DNA of 64,000 bases from Raineya orbicola (GTDB taxonomy: Bacteria; Bacteroidota; Bacteroidia; Cytophagales; Thermonemataceae). The notes under the pieces were generated by a model that searched no databases, was not told the origin of the DNA, and worked only from the letters and a program-made list of their open reading frames with translations. This document shows, piece after piece, positions 457 to 34,751 of this stretch. The stretch is from assembly GCF_002843425.1 (NCBI RefSeq), contig NZ_NKXO01000010.1:1-64000 (forward strand), in the 5' to 3' direction. The translations under genes and the position numbers were made by a program. How positions within the stretch are numbered: position 1 is the stretch's first letter; each line of letters starts with the position of its first letter.

Positions 457-657
457 ATCTTAAATTTATTTAACTATAAACAAGACCTCTAATGATGAGT
501 TTAGGAATATAATGTATGAAAATATTTATTTCTGGTGGCAAAGAGGGCATAGAAAATATGGTTCTTCGGCTTTTCCAGACTTTGAACCAAAAGCTATGTT
601 ATATCTTTTTAGCACATTTCATCAATATAAATATCGTACAATTTAAATTAAAAACTT

Positions 658-1215
658 ATGAGAATATTCAGATTTATAATCATTTCATCATTTTGCTTTA
701 TTTCAAGCAAAATTTTTGCTCAAAACTGGTATAATAACCCAACATTTACTATTAATGGAGAAACTTACAAGGTAAAAGCATTAGTAGATAATCAAGGCGA
801 GGGCATAATTTTCGTGGAAAACCTGAATAATAAATGTGGAAAATTTCCTTATCAAAGAACATCCAACTATGAGGAAATGGCTACTAGGTGTACAGCCTTA
901 GATGTTGTAGATGTAAAATATCTAATGCTCAAAATCAGAGAAATTGTCAATAATATTTTTAGTTTGGAGGAGAGGATAGCAATTATTCAGAATGAAAGCT
1001 ATTTTAGAGTAATCCCCAGAGTTACATATGAAAATAAAGTGGAAGTTAGATTTGAGTTCCGTCCTAATTCAATTATCACTCCTATGCAAATCTACACTAT
1101 GGATATGGCATTAAGGCAAATTCCCATTTCTTTTAATCCAAGAGGTTATTGTGCAATGATTGACCTCAAATGTATTGAGGCAACAGGTGTCTTCTGCCCA
1201 AAAATAGATGAATAA
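658..1215 (+). CDS. Secreted hypothetical protein with signal peptide
   Basis: A 185-residue protein I do not recognise. It begins with a clear signal peptide (MRIFRFIIISSFCFISSKIFA, cleavage expected after FA before QNWYNN), so it is exported to the periplasm or beyond. The mature part contains five cysteines and mixed alpha/beta composition, with no motif I can assign. ATG 658 is chosen because it places the signal peptide directly at the N terminus. It lies between the IS630 remnant and a bidirectional terminator at 1291-1329, and is probably transcribed alone. Its position beside a mobile-element remnant suggests accessory DNA, but that is inference. Confidence 0.7.
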   Translation: MRIFRFIIISSFCFISSKIFAQNWYNNPTFTINGETYKVKALVDNQGEGIIFVENLNNKCGKFPYQRTSNYEEMATRCTALDVVDVKYLMLKIREIVNNIFSLEERIAIIQNESYFRVIPRVTYENKVEVRFEFRPNSIITPMQIYTMDMALRQIPISFNPRGYCAMIDLKCIEATGVFCPKIDE

Positions 1216-1290
1216 AGAATTAATTTTCACATTAGAGTGGTATTCACCTCTTATCTTGAAGTATAAAAGAATTTTTTCAGTAAAACATAA

Positions 1291-1329
1291 AAAACGACCA
1301 TATTCACACAAGCTGAATGTGGTCGTTTT
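1291..1329. terminator. Bidirectional terminator hairpin, copy 1 of a dispersed repeat
   Basis: Sixteen-base arms at 1291-1306 and 1314-1329 with a 7-base loop; one internal pair is a G-U wobble. A run of T follows on the plus strand (1331-1338), and the A-run before the left arm gives a T-run on the minus strand. It lies between the convergent secreted-protein gene (ending at 1215) and mreC (ending at 1435). A 45-bp segment including this hairpin (1284-1328) recurs at 14703-14747 with only three differences. Confidence 0.8.
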
Positions 1330-1434
1330 GGTTTTTTTAGGGGCAAAACTTGATGACCTATCTTTCCCCCGCATCGTTTGCCTTCTGAGAATAGACATAA
1401 AAACTTTTTCTTAATTTTACAAGTACCAAAATAG

Positions 1435-2289
1435 TTACTTACGAGGAATATTAGTGGTATCTTTCTCTATTTCGGTTTGCTCTTGCTGTAATCTGTTTTT
1501 TACCACATACACATAGCTTAGTGTATTAAAGTCGGTCGAAAGGCGTACATCAATATCGTGAAAAGTAGAAGTTTTTTGTGGGTTGATGCGTTCTACTACG
1601 CCTACCATAATTTTTTCAGGGAAAAACACATTATAGCCCGAAGTAACTACGGTATCACCTATTGCAACAGGAATGGAAAGTGGAATATCTTTGAGTTTGG
1701 TATAACGGAAATTGCGGCTATCCCACTGAATATAGCTCAAATAAGCCTCGCCTTGTAAATTTTTGAGTTTTACTTTTACAGAAAAGGTACTTTGATTATG
1801 CAGAATAGTAGAAACTACTGCATAATGCTCCGAAACTTCTATCACCCTACCTACAATACCTTCCGAAGTAATAACTCCCATATCTTTCTGAATGCCATTG
1901 GCAGAACCTTTTTCAATGGTTATGAAATTACGAAGTTTGTGAATGGTTTTATTGACCACTTTGGCAGGTTCAAACTGATATTTGGAAATAATTGCTTCAT
2001 TACGAATAGGAATAAGATTTTCAAAATGGCTTTGTTTCAGACGCATCAGCTCATTATTGAGGCGGGCATTTTCTTCGCTTAAAGCCTGATTGACTTCCCG
2101 CAAATGAAAATAATTATTTACTTCATTTGCCCAAGCATTGAGCTTTCCCGAAAAAGCAGAAGCCGTATTCAAAAAATATGCTTTTTGATAATTGTTGAAC
2201 CTGACAATCATCAAAAAGCAAATGATTTGTAAAATCAGAAATAAAAAAGTTGCCCGAAAACGATAGACGAAATCAAAAATGGCTTGCAT
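1435..2289 (-). CDS. mreC: Rod shape-determining protein MreC
   Basis: MreC links the cytoplasmic MreB filament to the peptidoglycan-elongation enzymes in the periplasm. The 284-residue protein has the family layout: short cytoplasmic N terminus, one membrane helix at about residues 13-30 (FLFLILQIICFLMIVRF), a coiled coil around 55-90 with regular Leu/Asn/Glu spacing, then the paired beta-barrel region with FITIEKGSANGI and GVITSEGIVGRVIEV. It is 31 bases downstream of mreB and probably co-transcribed with it. Unusually, mreD and the PBP2/rodA genes do not follow: the next element is a bidirectional terminator and then unrelated DNA. Confidence 0.95.
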   Translation of the reverse strand: MQAIFDFVYRFRATFLFLILQIICFLMIVRFNNYQKAYFLNTASAFSGKLNAWANEVNNYFHLREVNQALSEENARLNNELMRLKQSHFENLIPIRNEAIISKYQFEPAKVVNKTIHKLRNFITIEKGSANGIQKDMGVITSEGIVGRVIEVSEHYAVVSTILHNQSTFSVKVKLKNLQGEAYLSYIQWDSRNFRYTKLKDIPLSIPVAIGDTVVTSGYNVFFPEKIMVGVVERINPQKTSTFHDIDVRLSTDFNTLSYVYVVKNRLQQEQTEIEKDTTNIPRK

Positions 2290-2320
2290 TGCTCAAATTT
2301 GAACTGACTTTGAAAACCTT

Positions 2321-3346
2321 TTAGGTCATCAATACCTTTTTATAGGCTTGCAGATTTTTTAGGGCAATGCCTGTACCTCTTACCACAGCCCTTAAAGGGT
2401 CTTCGGCAACGTGTACGGCTAATTTGGTCTTTTGAGCAAGACGTTTATCTAAACCTTTGAGCAAAGCCCCTCCGCCTGTCAAATGAATACCGTTTTGATA
2501 AATATCCGAAGAAAGCTCAGGAGGAGACATTTCCAAAGCATTTAGCACAGCATCTTCAATTTTAGAAATTGATTTATCCAAGCAGAAAGCTATTTCCTGA
2601 TAGCTAACCTTGATTACTTTGGGAATGCCTGTCATCAAGTCTCTGCCTCTTACTTCATATTCAGGTGGAGGATTATCTAACTCGGCAAGTGCAGAACCTA
2701 CTTCCATTTTGATTTTTTCGGCGGTTCTTTCGCCTACAAGCAAGTTATGCTGTCTTCGCATATAGTCGGCAATATCGCGTGTGAATACATCACCCGCTAC
2801 GCGAATAGATTGGTCGCAAACAATTCCTGAAAGAGCAATAACAGCAATTTCGGTAGTGCCTCCCCCAATATCTACAATCATTGAACCTATGGGCTGTTCA
2901 ATATCAATACCTATGCCAATTGCGGCGGCAATAGGCTCATAAATCATATAAACTTCCTTTGCTCCTGCGTGTTCGGCAGAGTCTTTTACAGCCCTTTTTT
3001 CTACCTCTGTAATGCCCGAAGGGATACAAATTACCATTCGGTAAGAAGGTTGAAAGAGCTTTCGGCGAGAATCTACCATTTTTATCATACAGCGAATCAT
3101 CTGTTCGGCGGCGGTAAAATCTGCAATTACACCATCTTTTAGAGGGCGAATGGTTTTTATTTCGCTATGTGTTTTTTCGTGCATTTGCATAGCCATTCTG
3201 CCAATGGCAAGCACTTTACCAGTTTTGCGGTCTATGGCGATAATAGAAGGCTCATCTACCACAATTTTATCTTTGTAAATGATAAGAGTATTGGCAGTAC
3301 CCAAATCTATGGCGATATCTCCTGAAAAAAAATCAAAAATTCCCAT
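2321..3346 (-). CDS. mreB: Rod shape-determining protein MreB (bacterial actin)
   Basis: MreB is the ATP-binding actin homologue that organises lateral cell-wall synthesis in rod-shaped cells. The 341-residue length is standard. The nucleotide-binding segments are visible: phosphate-1 loop IDLGTANTLIIY near residue 13, phosphate-2 loop IVDIGGGTTEIAVI near 160, and the adenosine motif GIHLTGGGALLKGLD near 290. It is first in an mreB-mreC unit. A promoter of Bacteroidota type lies at 3450-3479, leaving a leader of about 100 bases that contains a 7-bp inverted repeat at 3425-3440. Confidence 0.97.
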   Translation of the reverse strand: MGIFDFFSGDIAIDLGTANTLIIYKDKIVVDEPSIIAIDRKTGKVLAIGRMAMQMHEKTHSEIKTIRPLKDGVIADFTAAEQMIRCMIKMVDSRRKLFQPSYRMVICIPSGITEVEKRAVKDSAEHAGAKEVYMIYEPIAAAIGIGIDIEQPIGSMIVDIGGGTTEIAVIALSGIVCDQSIRVAGDVFTRDIADYMRRQHNLLVGERTAEKIKMEVGSALAELDNPPPEYEVRGRDLMTGIPKVIKVSYQEIAFCLDKSISKIEDAVLNALEMSPPELSSDIYQNGIHLTGGGALLKGLDKRLAQKTKLAVHVAEDPLRAVVRGTGIALKNLQAYKKVLMT

Positions 3347-3424
3347 TGTTACAAAAAAGGCTTTTATTAGAATTACGAACTTTCGTGGAAAAAGTTTCTT
3401 ATTTTACCCAAAATCAGGATAAGA

Positions 3425-3440
3425 AAGCCTTAAAAGGCTT
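3425..3440. repeat. Perfect inverted repeat in the mreB leader
   Basis: AAGCCTT-AA-AAGGCTT, a perfect 7-bp inverted repeat separated by two bases. It lies between the proposed mreB promoter and the mreB start codon. It could be an operator or a small mRNA hairpin; no T-run follows on the minus strand within the stem context, so a terminator is unlikely. Confidence 0.4.
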
Positions 3441-3449
3441 AAATTCGTG

Positions 3450-3479
3450 CAAAAATACAGACTTTTTTTTGCAAAACAA
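3450..3479 (-). promoter_or_regulatory. Candidate mreB promoter
   Basis: On the minus strand the sequence reads TTG, 19 bases, TATTTTTG, matching the Bacteroidota housekeeping consensus (TTTG / TAnnTTTG). It lies about 100 bases before the mreB ATG. The region is very AT-rich, so chance matches are possible. Confidence 0.45.
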
Positions 3480-30531: not shown

Positions 30532-30936
30532 ATGGGTTACGAAGATAAATGGAAATATAAATTACAAAATTTCAGCAAAGCAGTCGCTCTTTTGCAAGAA
30601 ATAAAGTTTTTAGATGTTTCTAAACTATCCTTGTTAGAAAAGGAAGGCATTATTCAACGTTTTGAATTTACCATAGAACTTGCTTGGAAAACACTCAAAG
30701 AAAGAATGGAGTTTGAAGGAGTGATATTAGATAAAATTTCTCCTAAAATGGTTCTGAAAACGGCTTTCCATTACAAATATATTGATGCGATTGATGAGTG
30801 GCTCGCAATGATTGATTTTCGTAATGCTATTAGTCATACTTACAATTTTGCTCTTTCTGAACAAGTTATTGCAAATATTCAGAATAAATTTGTAGATTTA
30901 CTTGCAGATTTGTTTGAAAAGCTAAAACAAGAATGA
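30532..30936 (+). CDS. HEPN-domain protein, HI0074/HepT-like (type VII toxin candidate)
   Basis: A 134-residue all-helical protein of the nucleotidyltransferase substrate-binding (HI0074) family. The segment DFRNAISHTYNF carries Arg97, His102 and Tyr104 in the spacing R-x4-H-x-Y that defines HEPN RNases of HepT type. In the studied HepT/MntA pairs, HepT is an RNase toxin and the Tyr is AMPylated by the partner nucleotidyltransferase to switch it off. That activity is known for the family, not shown here. Its stop overlaps the start of the nucleotidyltransferase gene by four bases (30933-30936). Confidence 0.9.
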   Translation: MGYEDKWKYKLQNFSKAVALLQEIKFLDVSKLSLLEKEGIIQRFEFTIELAWKTLKERMEFEGVILDKISPKMVLKTAFHYKYIDAIDEWLAMIDFRNAISHTYNFALSEQVIANIQNKFVDLLADLFEKLKQE

Positions 30937-31241
30937 TAGCGGGTATTAGTCAGAAACACTGGGATATTCTGCTGAAAATCTTTGAAAAATACCCCAATAT
31001 CAAAGAAGTAATTCTTTATGGTTCAAGAGCCAAAGGCACACAAAATGAACGAAGCGATGTAGATTTAGTGCTTAAAAATAGTTGTGTTTCTTACAGAGAA
31101 CTTGCAAAACTGATTGCGGAAATTAACGAGAGCAACTTTCCTTATTTGGTAGATATGCAGATTTTTGAACAAATTCAAAATCAAAGACTTTTGGAAGAAA
31201 TTGAAATGTACGGAAAACCCATTTACCCAAAAAAGAATTAA
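30933..31241 (+). CDS. Minimal nucleotidyltransferase, MntA/HI0073-like (type VII antitoxin candidate)
   Basis: A 102-residue minimal nucleotidyltransferase. The active-site pattern GSRAKGTQNERSDVD fits G-S-x10-D-x-D exactly (Gly30, Ser31, Asp42, Asp44). A further acidic residue is expected in YLVDMQIFE. MntA enzymes transfer AMP to the partner HEPN protein and so neutralise it. It is translationally coupled to the HEPN gene upstream, the usual pair order. The next gene begins 11 bases later. Confidence 0.92.
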   Translation: MIAGISQKHWDILLKIFEKYPNIKEVILYGSRAKGTQNERSDVDLVLKNSCVSYRELAKLIAEINESNFPYLVDMQIFEQIQNQRLLEEIEMYGKPIYPKKN

Positions 31242-33629: not shown

Positions 33630-34751
33630 ATGTTTGGCTGGTTAAAAAAAACTAAAAAAGAAGCAGAGGACGAAATCCCTGAGAAGGTTATAGAAGCAAC
33701 CATCGCGGAAATGGAAGAAGCAATTCGTAAAGAAATTGCCTCACTGAACCTGCTTGCCAAGAATTACAAAGCTATTCAAGAAAAGGGCAACGAATTACAA
33801 TATAAAGCCTATGAATTAGGCAAGGAAGCTCTCCGAGTGGTAAAACAGGGTAATAGCTTAGAAGCCAAAAATCTACTTACCCACAAAGCAGATTGCGAAC
33901 TGCAGGTAAAAGAGTACCAAGAAATTGCCAAAGATATGGAAATCTCTATCCGTAAGTTGGAAAAGCAGGTTTCCAAAATGAAAGTGCAATTAGACCGTAC
34001 TAAATCCAAAAAAGCCATTCTTGTGGCTGAATACGCCAACGCCCAAACCCAAAAAGAACTATCTCAAAAATTGCAAGAGCTTGATATTCACACTGATGTC
34101 TTTGAAACCTCTATTATTCAAACGCAAGTAGAAGCAGGTTTGCAAGAAGACCCTATCTTGAAAGAATTTGAAAGCTTAAACATCTCCGAGAAATCCATTG
34201 AAAACCTGCAAAAAGAAGCCGAAATAGAAGAACAAAAGATAAAAGAACAACAAGAAAAAAATAAACAAAAGTATTTAGAAACTCTCGTAGGTAAAGACTT
34301 TTTCAAATCTACCTCGCCAGAAGATAAGCAAAAGCCTCTTGCTGAAAATTTTGTCAAAGAAAATTTAACTCAAAAAAAGTCGCAACTTATACAAGAATTC
34401 TGGGAAAAACAGGCTGATAACAAAAATGAAACTCTTTTTGAGGGCTTTTTCGGCAAAGACGTAAGTAAAAAAAATCTATCCGAAGCTAATATTGATGATT
34501 TTTTTGACGAAAACAGCAATTTTTGCATAAATATTGATAGCTTTCTACAAAAAAGCAATCAAGCAAAAATTATTCAGGATTTTTTCAGCGAAAGTGAAGC
34601 CCAAGAACTGGCAGAGATTGAAAAAACATTACAAAATAACTATGAAACACCTAAACCCGATTTGCAAAAAAAATTTGATGATTTTTTCAAAGATAAAACA
34701 AGCAAAAGCGATAAGCAAAAGCAAATTGACGACTTTTTCAAAAATACTTAA
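33630..34751 (+). CDS. PspA/IM30-like membrane-remodelling protein with repeated acidic-Phe-Phe motifs
   Basis: A 373-residue protein. Residues 1-215 are a coiled coil of PspA/IM30 (bacterial ESCRT-III-like) type: MFGWLKK start, AKNLLTHKADCELQVKEY and VQLDRTKSKKAILVAEYANAQTQ (about 118-140). Such proteins coat and repair the inner membrane. The 150-residue C-terminal extension is different: it holds eight short motifs of the pattern (I/F)-(D/E/Q)-x-F-(F/W/L), at about 221, 253, 270, 287, 301, 314, 348 and 365 (for example IDDFF, IIQDFF, FDDFF, QIDDFF), in otherwise charged, low-complexity sequence. They look like docking motifs for a partner. The gene heads a five-gene cluster, and its 3' end overlaps the following lipoprotein gene in another frame. 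Confidence 0.85.
   Translation: MFGWLKKTKKEAEDEIPEKVIEATIAEMEEAIRKEIASLNLLAKNYKAIQEKGNELQYKAYELGKEALRVVKQGNSLEAKNLLTHKADCELQVKEYQEIAKDMEISIRKLEKQVSKMKVQLDRTKSKKAILVAEYANAQTQKELSQKLQELDIHTDVFETSIIQTQVEAGLQEDPILKEFESLNISEKSIENLQKEAEIEEQKIKEQQEKNKQKYLETLVGKDFFKSTSPEDKQKPLAENFVKENLTQKKSQLIQEFWEKQADNKNETLFEGFFGKDVSKKNLSEANIDDFFDENSNFCINIDSFLQKSNQAKIIQDFFSESEAQELAEIEKTLQNNYETPKPDLQKKFDDFFKDKTSKSDKQKQIDDFFKNT

Follow-up and report, generated by a model that had tools for sequence, protein, structure and literature searches.

Canonical PspA proteins, as far as we have examined them, are mostly 218-255 aa long and without any phenylalanine motif; what, then, is the purpose of a PspA/IM30-type protein that adds to this plan about 150 aa with eight Phe pairs, and which partner would read such a tail? 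The question is raised by a gene on the forward strand of the window (the whole stretch of 64,000 nucleotides of Raineya orbicola DNA analysed here), whose open reading frame was confirmed at 33630-34751 and encodes a protein of 373 aa, hereafter tail-PspA. Comparison of this gene with those of other genomes points away from its immediate neighbours and toward TerD, a protein of the Ter stress system encoded elsewhere in the same genome.

Results

A PspA-type core followed by a tail

The coiled-coil core of the PspA/IM30 type occupies residues 1-210 (33630..34259, forward strand) as supported by Pfam PF04012, the AlphaFold helices and Foldseek, and the tail comprises residues 211-373 (34260..34748, forward strand). 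The window protein scores 29.9 bits (E 5e-7) against PF04012 (PspA_IM30), whose curated cut-off is 33.9, and 19.3 bits against the 242.95 required by NCBIfam phageshock_pspA; the PspA_IM30 cut-off was passed by all five tail-PspA orthologues of one test set (39-134 bits), and among further tail proteins L131 reached 31.6 bits and L035 and L132 gave no PspA match. A profile built from 16 relatives, with the window protein among them, matches Vipp1/PspA chains of solved structure, the top E being 5e-27. In the AlphaFold model two long helices (17-72 and 76-137; block pLDDT 83-98 across residues 21-130) make up the helical hairpin alpha1-alpha2/3 by which PspA/IM30 proteins are recognized, and the best Foldseek matches of this model are PspA (7abk) and Vipp1, at E of about 1e-3. 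The family profile, the modelled helices and Foldseek thus support the N-terminal PspA-type coiled coil that an earlier note had proposed from the bare sequence.

At 373 aa with a tail, the protein departs from a canonical PspA of about 220-230 aa that lacks a C-terminal extension. The host genome (3.07 Mb, 104 contigs, completeness 99.76%) also encodes, as a separate gene at C20:9885, a canonical PspA of 221 aa without motifs, and the best explanation of the window gene is that it is a second, specialised PspA of the host cell. The tail marks a PspA subfamily without a name, distinct from the tail-less PspA of the host genome. Pfam and NCBIfam PspA matches of tail proteins stay essentially within the core, and none of the matches to the tails tested is credible. 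The closest named record to the window protein is CALLAC010000017.1, from an uncultured Cytophagales MAG, a congener, at 80% identity.

Eight Phe-pair motifs in charged linkers

Eight Phe pairs lie in charged linkers along the tail, whose block pLDDT is 41-74, and they mostly follow the form [I/F]-x-[D/E]-F-F. From the N-terminal side, and all on the forward strand, they are GKDFF at residue 221 (34290..34304), a weak form; IQEFW at residue 254 (34389..34403), which reads LEQFC, VDNFF and IDDFF in the congeners G001, G002 and G003, respectively; FEGFF at residue 270 (34437..34451); IDDFF at residue 288 (34491..34505), found by the alignment of congeners and by codon search; IDSFL at residue 302 (34533..34547), another weak form that is IDSFF in G002; IQDFF at residue 315 (34572..34586) and FDDFF at residue 349 (34674..34688), both placed by the alignment of congeners; and IDDFF at residue 366 (34725..34739), 3 residues before the C-terminus and identical in the four genus members compared. 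The C-terminus itself reads KQIDDFFKNT, and KQKQIDDFFKNT is a terminal peptide of the tail.

These eight motifs, as the earlier note had counted them, were confirmed in residues 211-373, none of 20,000 shuffles of the tail reaching the observed count: the broad motif occurs 7 times (GKDFF left out) against a shuffle mean of 0.35 and a maximum of 4, and the strict motif 5 times against a mean of 0.09. The bare FF count, 6, is less striking, being reached by 106 of the 20,000 shuffles. A search for the motif elsewhere found tails in other PspA homologues. Strict IDDFF is absent from the other open reading frames of more than 60 aa in the host genome: ATH-GAY-GAY-TTY-TTY codons occur in 9 copies against 7 for the reversed-pattern control, and of the 9 only the two within the window gene encode IDDFF in a frame that stays open for more than 60 aa.

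Across 49 tail proteins, 151 motifs yield the consensus K-K-[I/L]-D-D-F-F-[K/N]-K. Among 48 terminal motifs, position -3 is held by I in 37, L in 5, M in 5 and F in 1, and in 38 of 48 tail proteins the C-terminus lies at most 3 residues past the second Phe; since the proteins were chosen by a pattern that demanded I/L/V/M/F at -3 and a motif at most 10 residues from the end, both features arise in part by construction, which does not hold for the Asp pair or the flanking lysines. Positions -4, -5 and -6 are most often Lys (49, 43 and 43 of 151 motifs), with Glu and Asp also present. A tail may hold a single motif at its C-terminus (e.g. G042, G027, G046) or as many as ten (G005). Within the loci scanned, a C-terminal FF or FW is found in 49 of 64 open reading frames matching the PspA profile, in none of 132 TerD and in 11 of 624 other frames that are 100 aa or longer, L092 and L098 among these eleven being diverged or broken members of the tail-PspA family.

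The canonical PspA proteins examined in the host and in related genomes lack the motif, with the exception of L030, the second PspA of G005: this protein, at a canonical length of 218 aa, has MNDFF internally at residue 196, and the motif is therefore also found outside the long tails. The stretch belongs to the region of the last helix and is usually LDDEFKALEK in canonical PspA; one might speculate that the tail motif derives from it.

The tail is conserved beyond the genus and can outlast its core

Tail-bearing relatives were found in all three congeners and in other families. Of the 40 motif residues, G001, G002 and G003 share 34, 30 and 25 with the window protein (85, 75 and 62%); for the 123 linker residues the figures are 82, 39 and 43 (67, 32 and 35%), and for the 210 core residues 183, 134 and 52. 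Core and motifs are conserved to a similar degree in G001 (87 versus 85%) and G002 (64 versus 75%), whereas in G003 (L035, core residues 1-205) a core identity of 25% stands against a motif identity of 62% and Pfam sees no PspA. The motifs, kept better than the linkers in the three congeners, behave as conserved docking motifs, which lends support to the reading of the tail as a docking device in the earlier note; the loss of Phe pairs between species, by which the earlier note would have been refuted, is not observed apart from single motifs (motif 1 in G002 and G003, motif 2 in G001, motif 3 in G003). To judge from these identities, the tail appears to be under selection. The coiled coil of L035 looks as if it were evolving freely while the tail motifs persist.

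FF motifs, e.g. the C-terminal KKIDDFFNKK, are still present in the protein encoded next to terD in family f19, where Pfam recognizes PspA in none of six proteins tested. This persistence of tail and terD without a recognisable core argues that in f19 the core may be dispensable, with tail and TerD retained together, and hence that the tail would serve TerD rather than the PspA core. A patatin-like phospholipase gene immediately precedes that of the FF-tail protein in each of the four f19 loci L091-L094, a call made by Pfam for L092 and by the start of the sequence for L091, L093 and L094.

Tail-PspA occurs together with TerD

The order sample consists of 291 genomes, 69 of them with TerD, and a profile of PspA plus tail matches 66. 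The best match was examined in 65 of these 66, the match in G078 being a 44-aa piece at a contig end, and secondary matches in genomes with tail-PspA were examined in part only. When tail-PspA is defined by at least one FF motif within the last 45 residues, 46 recounted loci and the window give 47 genomes; among these, G092 and G209 are of the f19 type, with a core unseen by Pfam, and the frame of G085 is broken by stops. Because 47 of 291 genomes of the order carry such a tail, to call it unusual, as the earlier note did, was too strong. TerD is present in every one of the 47, and 222 of the 244 other genomes are without TerD (Fisher p 1e-37, uncorrected for phylogeny and shared ancestry).

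FF-tail proteins with diverged or broken cores stand beside terD in eight more genomes (G039, G040, G067, G080, G118, G130, G142, G162), which were left out of the Fisher test since they had been found through terD; once they are included, 55 of 69 TerD-positive genomes have an FF-tail protein. It was not found in the remaining 14 of 69, in 11 of which one terD neighbourhood was examined, so TerD does not need the tail. One of these 11, G037, has a short PspA-like frame (model positions 1-92) directly upstream of terD, with the tail absent. Most tail-PspA genomes carry 2 to 5 terD genes, and the number of motifs correlates with that of terD genes (hand-copied counts for 46 genomes, without correction: Spearman 0.46, p 0.001; 0.45, p 0.002, when G209 is removed). 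A comparison of 70 against 5 TerD sequences revealed no clear residue signature separating tail from no-tail genomes.

The sample of the phylum, 345 genomes of which 18 have TerD, the host included, contains tail-PspA beyond the host in G554 and G562, both TerD-positive (p 0.002, host left out); of the 36 other genomes with an A1 match, G422, G452, G554, G562 and G619 were examined by sequence and the rest by matched range. G554 and G562 belong to family f66 of another class, whose sequences are absent from the search profile. Seven of its ten genomes have a tail-PspA ending in FF, these same seven have TerD, the other three have neither, and the two genes adjoin in 5 of the 7; a canonical PspA match is found in 9 of the 10, always without the motif. 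As far as sequence comparison goes, f66 is an independent replication of the pairing of tail and TerD.

The same holds within single genera, in four of which (g4, g25, g53, g245) tail and TerD are present or absent together: both occur in G007 and neither in G006 (g4); both in G043, G057, G083 and G145 and neither in G028 and G108 (g25); both in G085 and G098 and neither in G073 (g53); both in seven genomes of g245 and neither in G619. In a further member of g25, G121, the tail is absent and the sole terD match is partial, with an internal stop. TerD without a visible tail was seen inside comparable genera in G059 (g44), G191 (g64) and G203 (g82), the congeners of the first two having both and that of G203 neither. 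No genome compared showed a tail without TerD. Two g25 genomes hold a further PspA paralogue of about 306-309 aa without FF tail (L169 of G121 and L170 of G083), whose common C-terminus, PPKRPRLRIRKEGFDD, differs from it.

terD is the recurrent neighbour

In 34 of the 47 genomes, terD lies within 2.5 kb downstream of tail-PspA on the same strand, and in 31 of these 34 the open frames touch or are less than 225 bases apart. An adjacency script was run on 56 loci and flagged 41; ten loci of this set, eight of them flagged, are outside the 47. L073, where terD is adjacent and the motif, at 15 residues from the end, had escaped the filter, was added by coordinates. terD is not near in 13 of the 47, namely the four members of the window genus, G015, G027, G065, G070, G082, G084, G123, G128 and G185, for which draft contigs limit the distance that can be given. 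Within the window genus, the two genes are separated by hundreds of kb or lie on different contigs; of the three terD genes of the host, two stand as a pair on contig C71 and the third is on C35, the contig of the window having none. Pfam TerD scores are 226 and 116 bits for two of these copies, and 218 and 113 bits for two examples of the neighbouring terD. An all-against-all comparison of the window and 16 other loci gave TerD as the only neighbour common to more than four, among the matches listed.

The earlier note had placed the gene at the head of a cluster with a lipoprotein, a T9SS protease and an ABC permease and had looked there for partners. That a lipoprotein and an S8 protease follow the gene stands, for they do so in all three congeners, and the ABC permease does not, since it is unmatched in the 16 other loci. 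As partners these genes are unsupported, and genome comparison points to TerD instead: among the matches listed, the lipoprotein and the S8 protease recur only in the 3 congeners of the 16 other loci, a CN hydrolase in 2 congeners (with a homologue also in the G023 locus) and the ABC permease in none. The local cluster was rejected as a source of partners because its genes hardly recur beyond the host genus.

Some features of these loci may be recorded here. A TTG at 34726, within the codons of the terminal IDDFF (window 34725-34751), can serve as the start of the lipoprotein frame that follows (lipobox MVAC), so that the lipoprotein gene may overlap tail-PspA in another frame; the longest frames overlap likewise in L046, L035 and L032. 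Window positions 30532-31241 hold an overlapping tandem of an NTase_sub_bind/HepT-like protein and a Polbeta nucleotidyltransferase, which we take to be a pair of the MNT/HEPN type. In L038 of G007 (596-3454), vWA, PP2C and protein-kinase genes follow one another some 6 kb upstream from tail-PspA and terD, an arrangement that resembles the TerY-type triad.

Phages, plasmids and defence systems

The tail-PspA of G052 has no match among 50,697 phage records. The G042 protein matches 477 plasmid records, none of them over 80% of the query, and the 15 matches listed end at residue 216-218, that is, in the core. Nine TerD-bearing phage or viral stretches were scanned, the TerD frame being recovered in seven and dropped by the open-reading-frame filter in two, and the tail-PspA profile has no match in the TerD loci of these seven. 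PADLOC recognises neither the window protein nor the one TerD checked with it, and gives only weak JetC and LmuB matches for the relative from G042.

A modelled read-through of tail and TerD

In G103, tail and downstream terD are in frame, and the read-through chain was modelled in one run on an alignment of 37 rows (15 read-through, 22 TerD only). TerD is modelled with confidence (most blocks at pLDDT of about 90), and matches TerD-type structures at Z 18-25; beyond TerD-type chains, the search returned the radial-spoke protein 7jtk at Z 16.6, all others listed being below 5. The terminal motif segment, 51-61, forms a helix with a block mean pLDDT of 82 between flanking blocks of 40 and 39, and an earlier motif has a pLDDT of 42. 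In the window protein, modelled without TerD as a control, the terminal helix block has a mean of 72, the other motif blocks 44-64, and residues 321-370 are raised to blocks of 58-74. The terminal motif at 82 with TerD versus 72 without it weakly favours docking in these models, the difference being small, between different proteins, and read from model output without coordinates or contacts.

Discussion

Our comparisons establish that the tail is real, conserved and wider in distribution than the sequence of one genome could show. With TerD in 47 of 47 tail-PspA genomes of the order sample and in 7 of 7 of family f66, a functional link of tail-PspA to TerD appears well supported by the comparison of genomes, and direct binding of the FF motifs to TerD is, we infer, its best explanation. 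The arrangement that we consider probable is a tail-PspA polymer whose disordered tail docks TerD multivalently. The specialised PspA would polymerise on the inner membrane, as may be supposed from the biology of PspA/Vipp1; the tails would project from the polymer as flexible multivalent arms; each FF motif would form a short helix bound to TerD; and the polymer, thus displaying many hooks, would gather TerD at the stressed membrane, a stress role being itself presumed. TerD has the fold of a C2-like beta-sandwich. Since the family binds calcium, according to the title of structure 2kxt, docking could, speculatively, depend on calcium.

Co-occurrence and adjacency fit direct and indirect partnership alike, and with 13 of the 47 tail-PspA genes not near terD in the stretches examined, one can imagine tail and TerD to be parts of one stress module in which the FF motif is read by some third protein that these genomes share and encode at an unlinked site. 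We regard this as unlikely, given that, among the matches listed, no other family recurs in more than four of the loci compared (the window and 16 others) and that the MIT domain (PF04212), the reader of the C-terminal MIM motifs of ESCRT-III, is absent from the host genome (99.76% complete), a control having been detected in Sulfolobus. It is likewise unlikely, in our judgement, that polymerisation is regulated by contacts of the FF motifs with the PspA core, in their own or another subunit, TerD being no more than a functional neighbour. The raised confidence over the last 50 residues of the window protein modelled alone would agree with such self-binding, which can be likened to the autoinhibitory C-termini of eukaryotic ESCRT-III; yet the G003 core is only 25% identical while its motifs are 62% so, f19 keeps the motif on a core that Pfam does not see, the canonical PspA examined lack the motif (L030 of G005 excepted), and it would be left unexplained that the tail never occurs without TerD.

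The same dependence on TerD is unexplained if the motifs are amphipathic helices for membrane insertion or condensation without a specific protein receptor, a reading that we find highly improbable. Short Phe-pair segments with flanking lysines could indeed touch membranes, and cyanobacterial IM30 forms condensates according to the abstract of PMC13351666; each motif, however, offers about three hydrophobic residues, mostly with Asp or Asn between, and the recurring Asp at -2 and -1, together with single terminal copies in some species, makes the motif look as if it were read by a receptor. 

The FFAT motif, with two Phe in an acidic tract, is read by the MSP domain of VAP; our motif departs from it, Lys being commonest at -4 to -6, where Glu and Asp also occur, in place of an acidic upstream flank. 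ESCRT-III of eukaryotes and archaea provides an analogy in the manner of working, in that a short C-terminal motif recruits a folded partner, from which tail-PspA differs by another motif, by up to ten copies per tail and by TerD rather than an AAA ATPase as the proposed partner; passages of PMC8281802 link the MIM motifs to Vps4. With PspA/Vipp1 (IM30) the window protein has the long helical hairpin core in common. Cyanobacterial and plastid Vipp1 also has a C-terminal extension after the PspA core (passages of PMC11237479), which the title of a reference in PMC8281802 describes as disordered; these passages mention neither an FF repeat nor a link to TerD, and the two extensions are set apart by description only. 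Passages of PMC9239133 report a subset of PspA with extra, mostly helical C-terminal sequence, and also that pspA has genes for band-7 proteins beside it in groups that include Bacteroidota.

The genes linked to tail-PspA are clear members of the TerD family (tellurite resistance/Ter stress system; 2kxt, 3ibz), which passages of PMC9111180 call poorly characterised, and it is this component of the Ter stress system that is paired with tail-PspA in the loci compared here. The literature searched, mostly titles and abstract openings, contains no report of the tail or of a partnership of PspA and TerD. As to adjacency of pspA and terD, one remark was found, in passages of PMC12363816, which state that terD adjoins a pspA-like gene in Jug phages of Bacteroides/Phocaeicola and that this region is transcribed as an operon. 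The passages of the PSP survey PMC11237479 contain no word that starts with 'tellur', and those of PMC9239133 and of the ESCRT survey PMC10936438 contain neither 'tellur' nor TerD.

The most far-reaching form of our proposal, which we hold to be about evenly balanced between right and wrong, is that a bacterial ESCRT-III protein loads TerD onto a membrane polymer by its FF-motif tail, as the counterpart of a MIM-type device with an unrelated motif and receptor. If this is true, multivalent recruiting tails exist on bacterial proteins of the ESCRT-III type, and TerD, a widespread calcium-binding family, would gain a defined place at the membrane-repair machinery. As the tail never occurs without TerD and the motif is short enough to be tested as a peptide, the function of TerD becomes a direct question of binding.
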